The translations under genes and the position numbers were made by a program. From positions 62,001 to 126,000 of the forward strand of contig JACJOC010000086.1 in NCBI GenBank assembly GCA_014695345.1: a stretch of DNA of 64,000 nt, written 5' to 3'. Within the stretch, counting starts at the first letter, position 1. Each line of letters begins with the position of its first letter. This document shows, piece by piece, positions 43,415-48,580 of the stretch. The DNA is from Cyanobacteria bacterium FACHB-471 (GTDB lineage: Bacteria; Cyanobacteriota; Cyanobacteriia; Elainellales; Elainellaceae). Under the pieces are notes generated by a model. That model saw nothing but the letters and a program-made list of their open reading frames with translations, was not told where the DNA came from and searched no databases.

Positions 43415-44500
43415 CTATGTCCAGTAAAGGATTCGAGCTTTGGGAAAACGTTGAGCAATCTCACGCTCAAAGAACTGCCGTAGCTCTTTCATGATGTCAG
43501 TGTCATAAACATACTTGGTCCCACCAAACTTGTTGCGCTTAACGCTACGGGTTGTTTCGTCCATGTCCAGCTTGGTCTGTGGATACCAGGTGGTCAACAC
43601 TTCTTTGGATTTGGGTGTAAAACGATGAGAAATGAGTTCAAAAGTCAGATCACAGTCAAAATCTAGAGCTTCGCTAATGGAGTCTAGAAGCTGAGTATAA
43701 TGCTCAACCCAATCCTCCATGACCATGATTGGGGCAATCACCAGACCAATGGGATAACCTCCTCCAGATTGCGATCGCGGCAGCGCCAATTTGCGTAATG
43801 CCTGGAGCCGGGCTGCAACGGATGCAGTGCCTCCTTCAAACCGACCGGAGATGGGTGTGGCATTGACACTGGCACGGCAGCGAGTGTGCCCGTTGTGTGG
43901 TAAGTCTAACAGTCCATCTACTGCGTCAAATTTGGACACCCAACGAAGATGCATTCCCTCTTGCCGACCAAAGTGACGAATGCACTCGGCGAGGCTACCT
44001 GTCAAATGCTCAATACCCAGCGGGTCGGTGTAACAACTCACTTCAAAGGAAGTTATCTGTCCAGGCTGCTTATAGTGAGTCAGGTTGTCTAAAATCTGCG
44101 GTAGGTTGGCAAAGGCGCGAATCACAGGAGGTCCAGACAGACTACCAGCCAGATAACAGTACTGACAGTGAGCCGGACAGCCCTCTGCTAAGTGAAATTG
44201 CCAGTCGGCAGAGGGAGGAATCGGGCTAAGTTTGAGGGCACCGGGTGGAGCGGTGACGACGGCAAGAGTACGTTTAGAAATGTCGTAGGTGTCGCGATCG
44301 CTCTCTCCTCTCAGCCCTGTCAGACGATTGCGAGGCAACTCATCAACAGGCAAGTTGAGGGACTGTACTCGTGAAAGAATTTGCTGTCCCCAAGGCTCTT
44401 CCAAAGCAGCTGGGGTAAACATGACCCGCTCGGGCATCCAGAGCCGGGCAGACCGTACAGGCTGAGTTGGGATAAGAGTGGTTGTGTCAGTATTCTGCAA
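43415..44500 (-). CDS. Spore photoproduct lyase-like radical SAM protein
   Basis: 361 residues. The radical SAM cluster motif is EGCPAHCQYCYLAG (Cys108, Cys112, Cys115). The C-terminal region has a Leu/Arg-rich stretch and ends with RILYWT, as in the SPL family. In spore formers SPL repairs the thymine spore photoproduct; cyanobacteria make no spores, so the lesion or substrate here is unknown. The gene begins 3 bases after the DUF370-like gene and is probably the last of a three-gene operon led by the HTH gene at 45371. Confidence 0.85.
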   Translation of the reverse strand: MQNTDTTTLIPTQPVRSARLWMPERVMFTPAALEEPWGQQILSRVQSLNLPVDELPRNRLTGLRGESDRDTYDISKRTLAVVTAPPGALKLSPIPPSADWQFHLAEGCPAHCQYCYLAGSLSGPPVIRAFANLPQILDNLTHYKQPGQITSFEVSCYTDPLGIEHLTGSLAECIRHFGRQEGMHLRWVSKFDAVDGLLDLPHNGHTRCRASVNATPISGRFEGGTASVAARLQALRKLALPRSQSGGGYPIGLVIAPIMVMEDWVEHYTQLLDSISEALDFDCDLTFELISHRFTPKSKEVLTTWYPQTKLDMDETTRSVKRNKFGGTKYVYDTDIMKELRQFFEREIAQRFPKARILYWT

Positions 44501-44503
44501 AAT

Positions 44504-44860
44504 CTAATCCTCTAGTACTTCACGAATGCGTCGCTCTAGACGCTCCAAGTCAAGTCCACCTTCGTCACGAGCAATCCGACGAACCGTAGCATTGACGTTA
44601 CTCAAGTCATTCACCAAATCTCTCAGAATCTCCTGCTGCTGCCGAGACTGAGTCACTTCACGCGGCTCTTGCACCAGGTCACGCACAATGGAATCTTCTG
44701 CGCGTGATGCAATCAACGGGTCAGACTGCCCCTGAAGCTGAATAAAGGTTCTACGACCGGGTCCGCGGTCTTCCTCAATTGGTATTACGGCAGTCACTTG
44801 ATCTGAACGCACATACTTACCAAATCCTAAATGAACCAATACAGATGACTGAATTTTCAT
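44504..44860 (-). CDS. DUF370 (RemA/RemB)-like protein with C-terminal helix
   Basis: 118 residues. The first ~65 (VLVHLGFGKYVRSDQVTAVIP followed by GRRTFIQLQGQSDPLIASRAEDSIVRDL) resemble the RemA/YlzA fold: a short HLGFGKxV strand, an I/V-rich strand, and the R-T-x-I strand followed by a helix. RemA/RemB are DNA-binding regulators of matrix genes in Bacillus (family knowledge). The last 50 residues form a charged helix not found in RemA. The match is by eye and should be taken as tentative. It lies 3 bases upstream of the radical SAM gene. Confidence 0.55.
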   Translation of the reverse strand: MKIQSSVLVHLGFGKYVRSDQVTAVIPIEEDRGPGRRTFIQLQGQSDPLIASRAEDSIVRDLVQEPREVTQSRQQQEILRDLVNDLSNVNATVRRIARDEGGLDLERLERRIREVLED

Positions 44861-45023
44861 GTAATGTTGTGCTTCTTCCTGCTTACCTCTATTCCTATTA
44901 TCGCTTCTACAACAGAAGCTTGGATTGCTTAAGCAGAGCGGCTTTTACCTTGTTTTGGTAGGGGTTTCCTGTGGCAAATTAGGGAGCTATTTTGACTTGC
45001 GTTTGAACTCACGTTTTAACGAT

Positions 45024-45371
45024 TTAGGAGCGGTTTTTGAGCAGTTCATGGATGCTCTGAAGCTCTGCCAAAATTGCTCGCAGCAATTCATGAGTAGCCG
45101 TCTCAGCAGGTTGTTGAATTTCGATGGTGACTTGCTTAATTCCTAATACATCTTTTGCAAATCGGGCTACCTCATTGGGATGAAACAGCAGTGGGTCATC
45201 TTTGTCGAGTCGCAGTTCAGGATTTAGCTTCTGAGGGTCATAGGGCAGGTTAGAGTTCTCTGGATCGGTGTTGGCGTAGCGATATACCGAAGCGCGAGAG
45301 CGGTTCAAAGCTTTTTGCACGGCTTCGACTGACATCAATCCCTGAGGGTTGCTTGAAGTTTCAACATCCAT
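45024..45371 (-). CDS. HTH-containing hypothetical protein (115 residues)
   Basis: Residues 11-32 (GLMSVEAVQKALNRSRASVYRY) look like a MerR/excisionase- or KorB-like helix-turn-helix; then an NxxP-rich loop (LPYDPQKLNPELRLDKDDPLLFHPNEVARF) as in DNA-binding proteins that read a domain order code in a cofactor-free way, and a C-terminal amphipathic helix (LLRAILAELQSIHELLKN) for dimerisation. No family name is offered. The gene is preceded by about 1 kb of DNA with many AGTCT-type sites, one palindrome lying 24 bases from its start, so it may bind them and control itself (inference). A 163-base gap separates it from the DUF370-like gene. Confidence 0.7.
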   Translation of the reverse strand: MDVETSSNPQGLMSVEAVQKALNRSRASVYRYANTDPENSNLPYDPQKLNPELRLDKDDPLLFHPNEVARFAKDVLGIKQVTIEIQQPAETATHELLRAILAELQSIHELLKNRS

Positions 45372-45383
45372 GACTTCTTTCCA

Positions 45384-46128
45384 TCTTGAGACTCACTAGT
45401 ATCAATACTAGTCTTATTTCTAGAACGATTAGTCTTAATTCTTGCAAAAGCTGATTTATATTGAGACTTGCTTGTCTCAATTTGAGTCCAGAAATGATAC
45501 TGCTGAGTCTCTATTGAGATAGAGTTTTTGTCTCAGATATAGACTCAATTGTATCGATATGAGTCTATATCTGAGTTTGCTTAGTCTAGAATTGAGAAAA
45601 GGTTTTAAGGTCTGATTTGTTTTCCCTACTTAGAGGCGTAGCATTCAAGCAAGAATCGCGAGTTCATTTCAAGGACACCTCTGAAATTCATTCTTTTGAA
45701 GAAAATGCCCCTTGAAATTTAGGTTTTGTTTTAAGTAAGAATTTGTACAAAGCGATCGCCTGCTTCGATGATCCTCTTTGTCACCACACTTCCTTAAGGT
45801 TTGTCTTAGAATGAGACTTGCTCGTATTGCTGCTGGTCTAAATTTGATACTGCTTAGTCTCACTGCAATCTTGAGATTTTGAATTTGTCGAGTTGATGAA
45901 GCCATATCTACTTCTAGATACAGGTAGCTAGCCCCCAATAGCTTTACAGAGATGCAATGGAGTGTGACCTCTACAAGTTCTACAAGATGCTTGCTTGACA
46001 TGTATTACTTTTCAACTAGCTTTGCCGCTCTAGCACAGCCTTTTTAGTCTCACAATAAGACTTAAGCTCGTTTCTATGAGTCCAGTCTTGATACAGCTGA
46101 GTCTAAATTAGAGTGTGAATTCTGAGAT
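45384..46128. repeat. AGTCT/AGACT motif array with inverted and direct repeats
   Basis: By eye, AGTCT or AGACT occurs 14 times between 45384 and 46105, where about 1.5 would be expected by chance. It includes ACTAGTAT-CA-ATACTAGT (45395-45412), TGAGAC-TTGCTT-GTCTCA (45462-45479), a perfect 16-bp inverted repeat (45532-45547 with 45560-45575, 12-base spacer containing TATCGATA), and three imperfect long direct repeats at 45462-45520, 45812-45877 and 46058-46128 that share TGATACTGCTgAGTCT and GAGACTTGCT. The whole region is non-coding. Confidence 0.85.
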
Positions 46129-46422
46129 TGTTGACTAGAGTAATAATTCCGTTTAAGTCATTTCAGAGCTTGTACAAACGCGGTTGATCCTGTTTCGGCT
46201 GAAGCCGATTATGTGCCAAGTATCTTTCTGAGCAGAATTTACTTATGTCTCTAAAGGAAGAATGAGACATTCAATAAGGTCACCCTGAAAACAGAGGATC
46301 AGCCAGAAGAATTGCAATAGGTTGATGTTTGTGCGCTGTGTGAAACAGTCTCAACAGAAAATTTATGTATTTTTTCTGGGCTGGAAATTCACGGTGGATG
46401 AGACGGAATAGAGGAATTGAAG
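46129..46422. other. Non-coding remainder between motif array and DJ-1 gene
   Basis: AT-rich, with a small TTCGGCTGAAGCCGAT hairpin near 46195 and no recognisable gene. Together with the array it leaves more than 1 kb without a gene. The frame covering 45669-46001 on the minus strand is not supported by composition or ribosome site. Confidence 0.5.
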
Positions 46423-46992
46423 ATGACACAGCAGCTCAATCAGAAAAAAGTTGCCATTCTAGTTACGGATGGTTTTGAGCAGGTGGAAATGACCGAGCCT
46501 AAGCAGGCTCTTGAGCAAGCAGGGGCTCAGTCCCATATCATTTCACCCAAAAGTGGTACTGTTCAAGGTTGGAATCACTTTGACAAAGGCGACAATTTTC
46601 CGGTTAACCTGATCCTAGATGATGCAAATCCTGGTGATTATGATGCTCTTTTGTTGCCGGGCGGCGTAGCGAACCCCGACCAATTACGCACTAATGAAAA
46701 AGCAGTGAAATTCATTAAGTCGTTTTTTGAAGCGGGCAAGCCCGTTGCCGCAATTTGTCATGGGCCATGGACGTTGATTGAGGCAGATGTTGTGAAGGGG
46801 CGCACGGTAACTTCCTGGCCCTCTCTTAAAACTGACTTAAGGAATGCAGGTGCAAACTGGGTCGATCAGGAGGTCGTAGTTGATCAGGGATTGGTAACGA
46901 GTCGGAATCCTAGCGACATTCCTGCCTTTATAGACAAGATGGTCGAGGAGTTTGCAAAAGGACAACATCAGGAACAGCGGCGTTCTGCTTAA
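46423..46992 (+). CDS. DJ-1/PfpI-family protein (type 1 glutamine amidotransferase-like)
   Basis: 189 residues. The nucleophile elbow is AAICHGPWTLIEA (Cys112, His113), and a conserved Glu in GFEQVEM sits near the N terminus, as in PfpI/YhbO/Hsp31-like proteins. Members act as deglycases/glyoxalases or stress proteins (family knowledge; the deglycase claim is disputed). The ATG at 46423 has GAGGAA 6 bases upstream; the earlier TTG in the same frame is not favoured. It is followed by a strong terminator. Confidence 0.92.
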   Translation: MTQQLNQKKVAILVTDGFEQVEMTEPKQALEQAGAQSHIISPKSGTVQGWNHFDKGDNFPVNLILDDANPGDYDALLLPGGVANPDQLRTNEKAVKFIKSFFEAGKPVAAICHGPWTLIEADVVKGRTVTSWPSLKTDLRNAGANWVDQEVVVDQGLVTSRNPSDIPAFIDKMVEEFAKGQHQEQRRSA

Positions 46993-47027
46993 GAATTGGC
47001 TGAACTAAAGTCTAGAGATCTAATATT

Positions 47028-47074
47028 ATTCAGGCGAGAAGCATAGTTCTGCTGTGTTTCTCGCCTGAATTTTT
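47028..47074 (+). terminator. Rho-independent terminator after the DJ-1 gene
   Basis: A perfect 13-bp stem (47028-47040 with 47058-47070; core CAGGCGAGAA) is followed by TTTTT. It lies 36 bases after the stop codon. Confidence 0.9.
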
Positions 47075-47404
47075 GCTGAGTAACAAGCTGTTGTGAATCA
47101 CGGTCATACGAGTCTTAAAGCTTTTTGCTAAGAGAAGTACTGGCGAGATTTTAAGTAGAAAGGGCTGAGTAGCCAGTTAGCGTCTTACTTCGAGGTTAAA
47201 GCGTCTCAAATTAAGTCTTGCCGTAAAATTAGTTGGTCTTAACATAAGACGCTCAACTTGAATGCAGGAGTAAATGGCCGTGCGGATGAAAAACCAGGGT
47301 ATGAATGTTAAATTACTTTGCGGGTAAGTTGTTCTGGTTCTGCTAGTTTCAATTTGCTAATTAGTTTTAGGTGTTGAAGGAACGGCAATTTCAAAAGACT
47401 AAAA
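47075..47404. other. Leader of the desaturase-SDR gene with further AGTCT-type sites
   Basis: Shows AGTCTTAA at 47111, GTCTCAAATTAAGTCTTG at 47203-47220, and GGTCTTAACATAAGACG (47235-47251) with inverted GTCTTA/TAAGAC halves. These resemble the array at 45.4-46.1 kb. A 17-codon frame at 47274-47327 has AGGAG in front but is too short to call. Confidence 0.45.
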
Positions 47405-48580
47405 ATGGATTTTAATTTGCTTATAAGTCAATTTCTGCTTGGGTGTTTCTCGATCGTTTTAGCAGAATTAATTCGAGATTTTTATCATTTGGCAGGGCAT
47501 TACTGGCAGCCTATTCAAGCTTTTCATACGTTGCACCACAAGGCTTATCGTCGAGATTTAACGATGGTCAGTCTTGAGGCTTATTGCAAGGCGCAGCTTT
47601 ATAATGATGTGCCAGAAGCGATCGCCATGACCCTTATTACGGGCGCGATCGCAGGTCTTGCTCAAAGTTATGGATTTGCAATTGGCTGCGTTTATTCGTT
47701 GGGTTTTTTAGTCTCAGCTTTAGCTCGTTCTCAAGGCTTACTGCTGCAAACTGATTTAACCCATAAGCCAGGAGATTTGGTTGAAATTCCGACTCGATGG
47801 ACGGTGAATCGAACCTATCACTGGCGACACCATTTTGATCAGGGAAATTCCTATTATTCTGGTCACTTTACTGTTTTCGATAAGCTGTTAGGAACCAGCT
47901 TGTCGCTGAAGGGGAAGGTGGTTGCGGTAACGGGTGCTTCTGGCTCTATGGGACGGGCGCTGATTCAACAGTTGGCTCAGCAAGGGGCAAGAGTGGTTGC
48001 ATTGACGACTTCGGATGGAGCGGAGTTTGACACTCCAATTGAGGTGATTAAGTGGCATCCGGGACAGGAGAATGAGTTGGGCGATCGCCTCAAAACGGTT
48101 GACATTCTGATTATCAACCACGGTATTAATGTGCATGGCGATCGCACTCCTGAAGCGATCCAAAAGTCGTTTGAGATCAATACCTTCTCTGTCTGGGCGT
48201 TGGCGGAGCTATTTTTGAGTACTGTACAGAAGTCAGAGCATAAGGCAATCAAGGAGCTTTGGATTAACACGTCTGAAGCAGAGGTTAGTCCGGCACTCAG
48301 CCCTCTGTATGAATTGTCAAAGCGCACCCTTGGAGATTTGATTACTTTGCGGCGACTGGATGCCCCTTGCATCATTCGCAAACTGATCCTGGGACCATTC
48401 AAGAGCAATTTGAATCCGGTTGGGGTGATGAGTCCAACTTGGGTCGCTTGGGCGATCGTGGCGCTTGCCAAGCGCGACTTGAGAAACATCATCGTCACGG
48501 TTAACCCAATCACTTATGTGGCGTTTCCGGTGAAGGAGTTATTGCAGTCTGTTTATTTTCGGTTGTTTTCCAGGCAATAG
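47405..48580 (+). CDS. Bifunctional sterol desaturase / short-chain dehydrogenase
   Basis: 391 residues, a known cyanobacterial fusion. The N-terminal half (about 1-160) is a fatty acid hydroxylase/sterol desaturase-like membrane domain with histidine motifs HLAGHYW, HTLHHKAYR and HWRHHFD for a di-iron site; the C-terminal half is an SDR with the nucleotide-binding VTGASGSMG (near 176) and NHGINVHG. The SDR part has no clear YxxxK at the usual place: YELSKRT (about 301-307) could serve. Substrate unknown, presumably a membrane lipid or carotenoid-like molecule (inference). Confidence 0.9.
   Translation: MDFNLLISQFLLGCFSIVLAELIRDFYHLAGHYWQPIQAFHTLHHKAYRRDLTMVSLEAYCKAQLYNDVPEAIAMTLITGAIAGLAQSYGFAIGCVYSLGFLVSALARSQGLLLQTDLTHKPGDLVEIPTRWTVNRTYHWRHHFDQGNSYYSGHFTVFDKLLGTSLSLKGKVVAVTGASGSMGRALIQQLAQQGARVVALTTSDGAEFDTPIEVIKWHPGQENELGDRLKTVDILIINHGINVHGDRTPEAIQKSFEINTFSVWALAELFLSTVQKSEHKAIKELWINTSEAEVSPALSPLYELSKRTLGDLITLRRLDAPCIIRKLILGPFKSNLNPVGVMSPTWVAWAIVALAKRDLRNIIVTVNPITYVAFPVKELLQSVYFRLFSRQ

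Follow-up and report, generated by a model that had tools for sequence, protein, structure and literature searches.

A helically phased AGTCT array and a conserved HTH-like protein as a candidate replication-terminus system in cyanobacteria

Organization of the array and its neighbouring genes

The DNA that was analysed (the window, 64,000 nucleotides of Cyanobacteria bacterium FACHB-471) carries a minus-strand gene for a 115-aa HTH-like protein (45024..45371), which belongs to a conserved single-copy cyanobacterial family and is the proposed binder of the array described here. Downstream of this gene are a gene for a RemA-like (DUF370-like) protein of 118 aa (44504..44860, minus strand) and then, also on the minus strand, a gene for a radical SAM protein of the spore-photoproduct-lyase (SPL) family (43415-44500; PF20903, E 1e-92), for which the NCBIfam match fell under the equivalog cut-off. 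Upstream of the HTH gene, the original prediction had placed a dense motif array ending next to the start of the 115-residue ORF at 45371, and this arrangement was borne out. A DJ-1/PfpI-family gene (46417..46992, plus strand) lies on the far side of the array; each of the three species in this genus has it as a neighbour, and it is probably not part of the array system.

Direct counting of the 745-bp region 45384-46128 gave exactly 14 AGTCT or AGACT words, compared to 1.4 expected at the window-average rate, in agreement with the predicted excess of copies over chance. A first-order Markov model of the same region yielded a mean of 4.0 and a maximum of 13 words in 2000 runs, and array-free stretches of 745 bp, taken across the window in 50-bp steps, held at most six words, the six being those of a group near 47 kb. 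When one letter was relaxed there were 21 sites in the region, with ten pairs of sites exactly 21 bp apart, a number that was matched in none of 2000 random placements. A search of positions 44000-48000 for RNA elements gave no Rfam matches up to an E value of 1.

The array sites form five modules, each a triplet with 21-bp steps, and the modules were nearly dyad-symmetric once aligned. Module 1 (45375..45449, plus strand; sites at 45389, 45410 and 45431) contains a 20-bp dyad next to the HTH start (45386-45405, TTGAGACTCACTAGTATCAA), which is the part that recurs at HTH promoters in other genera. It is followed on the plus strand by module 2 (45453..45522; sites at 45464, 45485 and 45506) and module 3 (45527..45600; sites at 45541, 45562 and 45583), the latter being missing in the aligned congeners. 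Modules 4 (45800..45869; sites at 45814, 45835 and 45856) and 5 (46044..46116; sites at 46058, 46079 and 46100), both on the plus strand, each have a module at the same place in both congeners. A second group of sites had been predicted before the desaturase/SDR gene; this module-like cluster (47182..47250, no strand assigned; relaxed sites at 47181, 47202, 47214 and 47235) is real but weaker than the main array, its profile matches at 47182-47249 and 47197-47250 scoring 19.6 and 22.7 bits. In the congener G021 a match of comparable score was found approximately 1.2 kb past the main array. The triplet order with its 21-bp steps had been missed when the array was originally described.

The HTH-like protein matched three Pfam HTH models, all of them below threshold (E about 0.02), so the HTH label it had been given is supported by these matches but at sub-threshold scores. 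No NCBIfam model was matched, and neither Pfam nor NCBIfam supplied a name at curated cut-offs; a phmmer comparison with PDB sequences returned only two leucyl-tRNA synthetase matches (E 0.85-0.86). Within the HTH stretch the residues RSRAS and YRY were invariant across 65 sequences. An AlphaFold model built from 65 sequences was poor (pLDDT 64, pTM 0.25), with no fold match at Z 2 in a VIA-align comparison with eight chains, and no conclusion rests on it. The gene was present in one copy in 34 of 36 genomes of the family and in all 27 of the more complete ones; of 386 genomes sampled across the phylum, 76 had a match to the protein, and a search of species genomes confirmed 216 relatives, some of them in Synechococcus, Cyanobium and Vulcanococcus. 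The best 80 of these 216 were used for comparisons of orthologue loci.

The RemA-like neighbour scored 18.5 bits against the Pfam RemA model (PF04025), for which the cut-off is 26; the DUF370-like label is thus backed by one match (E 0.0022), which is sub-threshold. Homologues of this protein occurred near the HTH gene in only two of the 80 orthologue loci (best 80 of 216), both of them in congeners, which argues against the suggestion that the DUF370-like neighbour binds the array. The RemA-like protein was 100% identical in these two congeners (L037 and L038); the corresponding identities were 93-94% for the HTH protein and 92-93% for the SPL-family neighbour.

Conservation of the array and its association with the HTH gene

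In the space that separates the HTH gene from the DJ-1/PfpI gene, each of the two congeners carried three module triplets, counterparts of the outer and inner modules of the window. In the alignment the module stretches were kept and the DNA between them had diverged or been replaced. A profile (R1) was made from 11 modules of the window's genus. In the window's own genome it matched the five modules at 51-58 bits and nothing else above 16.4 bits; a second AGTCT cluster in the same genome, named in advance as a finding that would speak against the proposal, was therefore absent. When R1 was applied to other genera, its matches clustered away from the HTH gene.

A broader profile (R2), built on the 88 matches of R1, was used to survey 27 genomes of the order, each at least 90% complete. 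At E ≤ 0.005 an array was found in 23 of the 27, a count that is circular in part since some of the R1 matches used for training came from surveyed genomes; nine family genomes outside the training set (G005, G007, G009, G011, G012, G016, G018, G024 and G034) had one locus each. In 22 of the 23 array genomes every R2 match fell within a single locus, which spanned no more than 11.6 kb, and the remaining genome (G020) had one extra match, at its own HTH promoter. No R2 array match was obtained in the HTH-bearing genomes G004, G028, G032 and G033. Only in G000, G021 and G030 was the array adjacent to the HTH gene; in the other 20 of the 23 genomes the two were apart, on separate contigs in 19 and at a distance of approximately 3 Mb in G029.

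Genomes with and without the HTH gene were compared by a fixed rule on R1 matches at E ≤ 1, which required either two non-overlapping matches within 2 kb or one match of at least 20 bits. An array was scored in 16 of 22 HTH-bearing genomes and in 1 of 13 HTH-lacking genomes (Fisher p = 0.0003), or in 13 of 19 and 1 of 13, respectively, after removal of the window's genus (p = 0.0009). This count left out G420 and G421, and G205 was taken as HTH-lacking from its absence among the phylum matches. The HTH-bearing genomes missed by the rule were G026, G030, G032, G061, G088 and G135; R2 recovered the arrays of G026 and G030. The sole HTH-lacking positive (G053) had two equal 13-bit matches, and eight HTH-lacking genomes showed scattered single places and no clusters. 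Since genomes with and without the HTH gene are also of different ancestry, these results represent an association and not proof.

A single dyad of the array motif was present just upstream of the HTH gene in many other genera, and in picocyanobacteria groups of half-sites near this gene reached the start codon. Conservation of the motif upstream of HTH orthologues had been set beforehand as a test of the proposal. Among 78 orthologue loci (the best 80 of 216 minus the window's two congeners), 53 had GTCTYA or its complement in the 150 bp upstream of the gene, compared to 37 of 590 control regions taken at these loci upstream of other mechanical ORFs; the ratio is large, although the loci are mutually related and a p value would overstate it. 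Because its own promoter carries the half-site of the array, the HTH protein probably binds the array motif and regulates its own gene. That a conserved array exists and is linked to the HTH gene can be stated with good confidence.

A genome-wide operator regulon was also considered and was rejected. In the window's own genome, a search for the 20-bp dyad TTGAKACTNNNNAGTMTCAA with up to three mismatches gave 105 matches, as did the same dyad read backwards, so no regulon is visible at this stringency. Only the three best matches stood out, and all three were within the array.

In ten filamentous arrays, pooled with the window excluded, AGWCT pairs were found at 11-12, 20-21, 32 and about 43 bp and none were found at 13, 14 or 26-30 bp, peaks that are partly favoured by the use of a profile to find the arrays. 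These spacings are whole helical turns. Six Prochlorococcus-size genomes had a step of 12 bp (19 pairs) and 24 bp (9 pairs). The density of sites was 9-32 per kb in 16 of 17 arrays and 3.9 per kb in G070, where it was taken over two groups 5.6 kb apart; the control density was 1.35 per kb (74 stretches, 1.48 Mb, three genomes, with G314 stretches among these density controls).

Ten of 28 array loci were within 2.2 kb of a contig end (L316, L317, L318, L320, L321, L323, L324, L330, L162 and L159), which hints at repeats or unstable DNA beside the arrays. If repeats lie nearby, the array itself might be a functionless cluster derived from them or from chance; the regular spacing, the conservation in congeners, the association with the HTH gene and the single locus per genome make that explanation very improbable.

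Genomic context and chromosomal position of the array

The ORFs that flank the array were mostly unrelated between genera, and a few close relatives had a common neighbour. The largest shared group consisted of response-regulator or kinase-like ORFs, which were found at nine loci at varying distances. Judged from mechanical ORFs, 9 of 28 array loci lay between divergent genes, 13 between tandem genes and 2 between convergent genes, with one flank missing in the other 4. Arrays between convergent 3' ends were seen in G251, G029 and G338, with pheT converging on the array in G251 and G338, which excludes a promoter operator at these loci.

In picocyanobacteria the array adjoined the 3' end of a gene whose product has a ribbon-helix-helix (RHH)-like start, itself a sub-threshold match, and a DnaJ domain (L246:390-1451 and homologues). 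A search of 28 genomes recovered this RHH/DnaJ gene in 26, full-length in 25 and as a broken fragment in one. Over the 25 loci there were 90 AGWCT words in the 500 bp after the gene compared to 15 in the 500 bp before it, and 12 of the 25 had at least four in the 500 bp after. The copies in GC-rich Synechococcus-type arrays were more degenerate. In G374 the profile matches were inside a 514-aa tyrosine-recombinase-like ORF (L277:15745-17289; PF00589, E 1.5e-32).

The position of the array was expressed as its distance from dnaN, used as a proxy for the origin, in fractions of the circle, with 0.5 being opposite. For Synechococcus elongatus, a passage of PMC3480399 places the origin next to dnaN and calls the terminus 'not clearly defined'. 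The window's genome is a draft, and the distances of arrays from dnaN were measured on other genomes. Six chromosomes with the array and dnaN on one contig, chosen by their clusters before dnaN was located, gave distances of 0.493 (G070), 0.484 (G030), 0.477 (G314), 0.469 (G251), 0.427 (G374) and 0.218 (G029), with a mean of 0.428 (p = 0.0005). G374 was then dropped from the test because its sites lie inside the recombinase ORF; four of the five remaining filamentous or picocyanobacterial chromosomes had the array at 0.469-0.493 (mean of all five 0.428, p = 0.0016). Eight further genomes, in which dnaN was absent from the first 3 kb, were left out of the placement.

On all but one of 19 picocyanobacterial chromosomes the array locus, defined as the 3' end of the RHH/DnaJ gene, was at 0.443-0.500, the exception being G292 at 0.332; the 19 loci share a neighbour gene and an ancestral neighbourhood, and are not independent. 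Weak arrays (one to three AGWCT in 500 bp) were seen among them in G253, G294, G400, G217, G233 and G406. In G338 the best single match (20.6 bits, L278, near 1107.2 kb) was 0.04 from dnaN and the denser array was at 0.489; the former is probably due to chance and was set aside as one isolated place. GC skew in G251 was positive between 20 and 560 kb, of mixed sign as far as about 1150 kb and negative from 1260 kb onwards, which is compatible with a terminus in the middle of the chromosome. No significant two-arc pattern was seen in the skew of 40 sampled stretches of G029 (shuffle p = 0.50).

These observations bear on the proposal that the array is an extended transcriptional operator with multiple sites in a promoter region, through which the HTH protein would repress or activate the DJ-1/PfpI and desaturase/SDR genes as well as its own, and in other genomes would regulate whatever gene adjoins the array. 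The window array does lie between divergent genes, the outlying cluster precedes the desaturase/SDR gene and a single dyad is conserved at the HTH promoter; moreover, 9 of the 24 arrays with two flanks are between divergent ORFs and 13 of the 24 are between tandem ORFs, so a promoter role could apply to most of them. A local operator predicts neither a single array in each genome with largely unrelated genes next to it, nor arrays flanked by convergent 3' ends, nor a position opposite dnaN, and the proposal is considered unlikely. The operator that was originally predicted thus fits the single dyad at the HTH promoter but not the array as a whole, which occurs once in each genome and in most cases far away from the HTH gene. 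Because it is also usually opposite dnaN where this was measured, the whole array is read here as a position-independent site rather than a plain operator.

A different protein may bind the array, either the RemA-like protein, as a ring, in the window's genus or the RHH/DnaJ protein in picocyanobacteria. RHH proteins commonly bind short repeated sites, a habit that would suit the RHH/DnaJ protein, whose gene has the array at its 3' end and was full-length in 25 of the 28 genomes searched. RemA (DUF370) binds periodic repeats, as a passage of PMC8481266 states, and the HTH gene of the window has a gene for a weakly RemA-like protein beside it; however, that neighbour is below the Pfam cut-off and, among the loci seen, the neighbourhood is confined to this genus (2 of the best 80 of 216 orthologue loci). 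The array-bearing G070 gave no RHH/DnaJ match, and the gene that carries the motif in its own promoter across lineages is the HTH gene. Another binder is therefore improbable, although the RHH/DnaJ protein could be a second component in picocyanobacteria.

A possible role at the replication terminus

On the reading favoured here (probability roughly 0.55), the array would be where the 115-aa HTH protein binds the chromosome, and would act at the end of the replication cycle. Dimers of the protein would recognise GTCTYA half-sites and line up cooperatively on sites spaced 11-12, 20-21 and 32 bp, and the filled sites would make one nucleoprotein array per chromosome. This array may hold or arrest the last forks, mark and compact the terminus, or assist in the resolution of chromosome dimers; the promoter dyad would confer autoregulation and keep the level of the HTH protein in check. 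The motif, its spacing, the single locus per genome, the HTH-gene association and the chromosomal position are direct observations, and a job at the end of replication appears the most likely one for the array because it usually lies opposite the origin, with dnaN as proxy. The distances of 0.218 in G029 and 0.332 in G292 count against a terminus reading. With these set in the scale, the evidence still tips somewhat towards a terminus role of some kind.

The Bacillus RTP protein has about 122 aa and a winged-helix fold with a C-terminal dimer helix; it is autoregulated, and the rtp gene is beside Ter sites. According to passages of PMC10331603, RTP is dimeric and its sites consist of half-sites A and B, its loss raises chromosome dimers in B. 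subtilis, and Tus is a monomer with polar sites. Like RTP-Ter, the replication fork trap of Bacillus subtilis, the system described here would combine a small DNA-binding protein (presumed to be dimeric) with paired sites at the terminus. Terminus-region sites, as judged by dnaN distance alone, were found on 4 of 5 and 18 of 19 chromosomes, with G029 and G292 as the exceptions, and autoregulation of the binder through a like site is suggested by the sequence contrast at the HTH promoters (53 of 78 compared to 37 of 590). Two differences were apparent: the HTH protein had no RTP match in the PDB phmmer comparison, and polar Ter sites are spread along the terminus whereas a single near-symmetric dense array is found here.

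Given the terminus position, the one cluster per chromosome, the long conservation and the small autoregulated protein, the array system would appear to resemble RTP-Ter most closely in its way of working, and a terminus-bound barrier or organiser that works like RTP-Ter but is unrelated to it is the favoured interpretation. Since the modules are near-symmetric, with no obvious polarity, and homology to RTP is lacking, a fork barrier is only slightly more likely than a terminus organiser or a dimer-resolution accessory. The Tus-ter system of Escherichia coli likewise consists of terminus sites and a dedicated protein; Tus is, however, a monomer on polar sites and here there is a repeated dyad array with an unrelated small protein. 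MatP-matS is similar in that a site-specific protein marks the terminus region, but the matS sites are dispersed through a large domain and the fold of MatP is ribbon-helix-helix. The HTH protein matched HTH models only, below threshold, and not the RHH family, and the array sites were grouped in a single cluster no longer than about 12 kb (in 22 of 23 genomes all lay in one locus, 11.6 kb at most) instead of being scattered.

A centromere-like partition site served by a motor protein, as for parS or parC, would also account for one dense array per genome with a presumed binder that is small, dedicated and autoregulated, features shared with ParABS and small plasmid partition systems, in which one clustered site per replicon is combined with a small autoregulated binder. 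Where placed, however, the array was opposite dnaN and not near it, and no motor gene accompanied the HTH gene or the array. There was no ParA-type motor among the scanned neighbours in the window, and no ParB model among the Pfam or NCBIfam matches of the HTH protein. The HTH protein as a replacement for ParB was rejected as a candidate: ParB was above the cut-off in 60 of 386 phylum genomes and its presence showed no visible complementarity with the HTH gene. Partition is thus regarded as distinctly improbable. Of the alternatives in the original prediction, a DNA-organising site is the better one, although its centromere-like form is disfavoured by the position opposite dnaN and the absence of a motor gene, and a terminus had not been proposed. 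By eye, a ParA-like ORF was seen near the recombinase ORF in the doubtful G374 only.

For the favoured terminus reading, the evidence points beyond what was first proposed, to what may be a terminus-associated protein-array system across much of the cyanobacteria. In its fullest form the proposal is of an independently evolved replication-terminus system, in which each chromosome would have a single helically phased AGTCT array occupied by a dedicated autoregulated HTH protein that acts on the final stage of replication or segregation, in cyanobacteria ranging from Leptolyngbya-like filaments to picocyanobacteria of Prochlorococcus size; this version is put forward tentatively, at a little under even odds. 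Many cyanobacteria are polyploid, and how they finish replication and part their chromosomes is poorly understood. A limited search of the literature on cyanobacterial segregation, resolvase-type HTH proteins, terminus macrodomains and replication termination found no description of the array system. If the proposal is true, it would provide a terminus landmark that is detectable from sequence, a candidate terminus protein conserved from Leptolyngbya-like species to picocyanobacteria, and another independent solution beside Tus and RTP, in a phylum where dif prediction failed.

The HTH protein may instead be an accessory of chromosome-dimer resolution, similar to an excisionase or a plasmid-resolution protein, that shapes the DNA beside a putative cyanobacterial dif. 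The array's position opposite dnaN and the sub-threshold HTH_17-type match of the protein are consistent with such a role, as is the description, in the abstract of a phage 186 Apl paper, of recombination directionality factor (RDF) sites as direct repeats one helical turn apart; dif was predicted in none of five cyanobacteria in one survey, according to a passage of PMC3025954. The tyrosine recombinase of G374 holds the motif matches in its own ORF and so gives no evidence of linkage. A palindrome scan for a 28-bp dif-like site yielded no candidate common to the array loci and none was identified, the one palindrome found beside the array being confined to three picocyanobacterial loci (in G251, G338 and G142). 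This role is judged quite unlikely. The palindrome has arms GTAACTGT and ACAGTTAC separated by a 7-bp spacer and lies at L246:1777, L304:9309 and L296:9390, with one mismatch in L296; it is possibly a hairpin or a recombination site.
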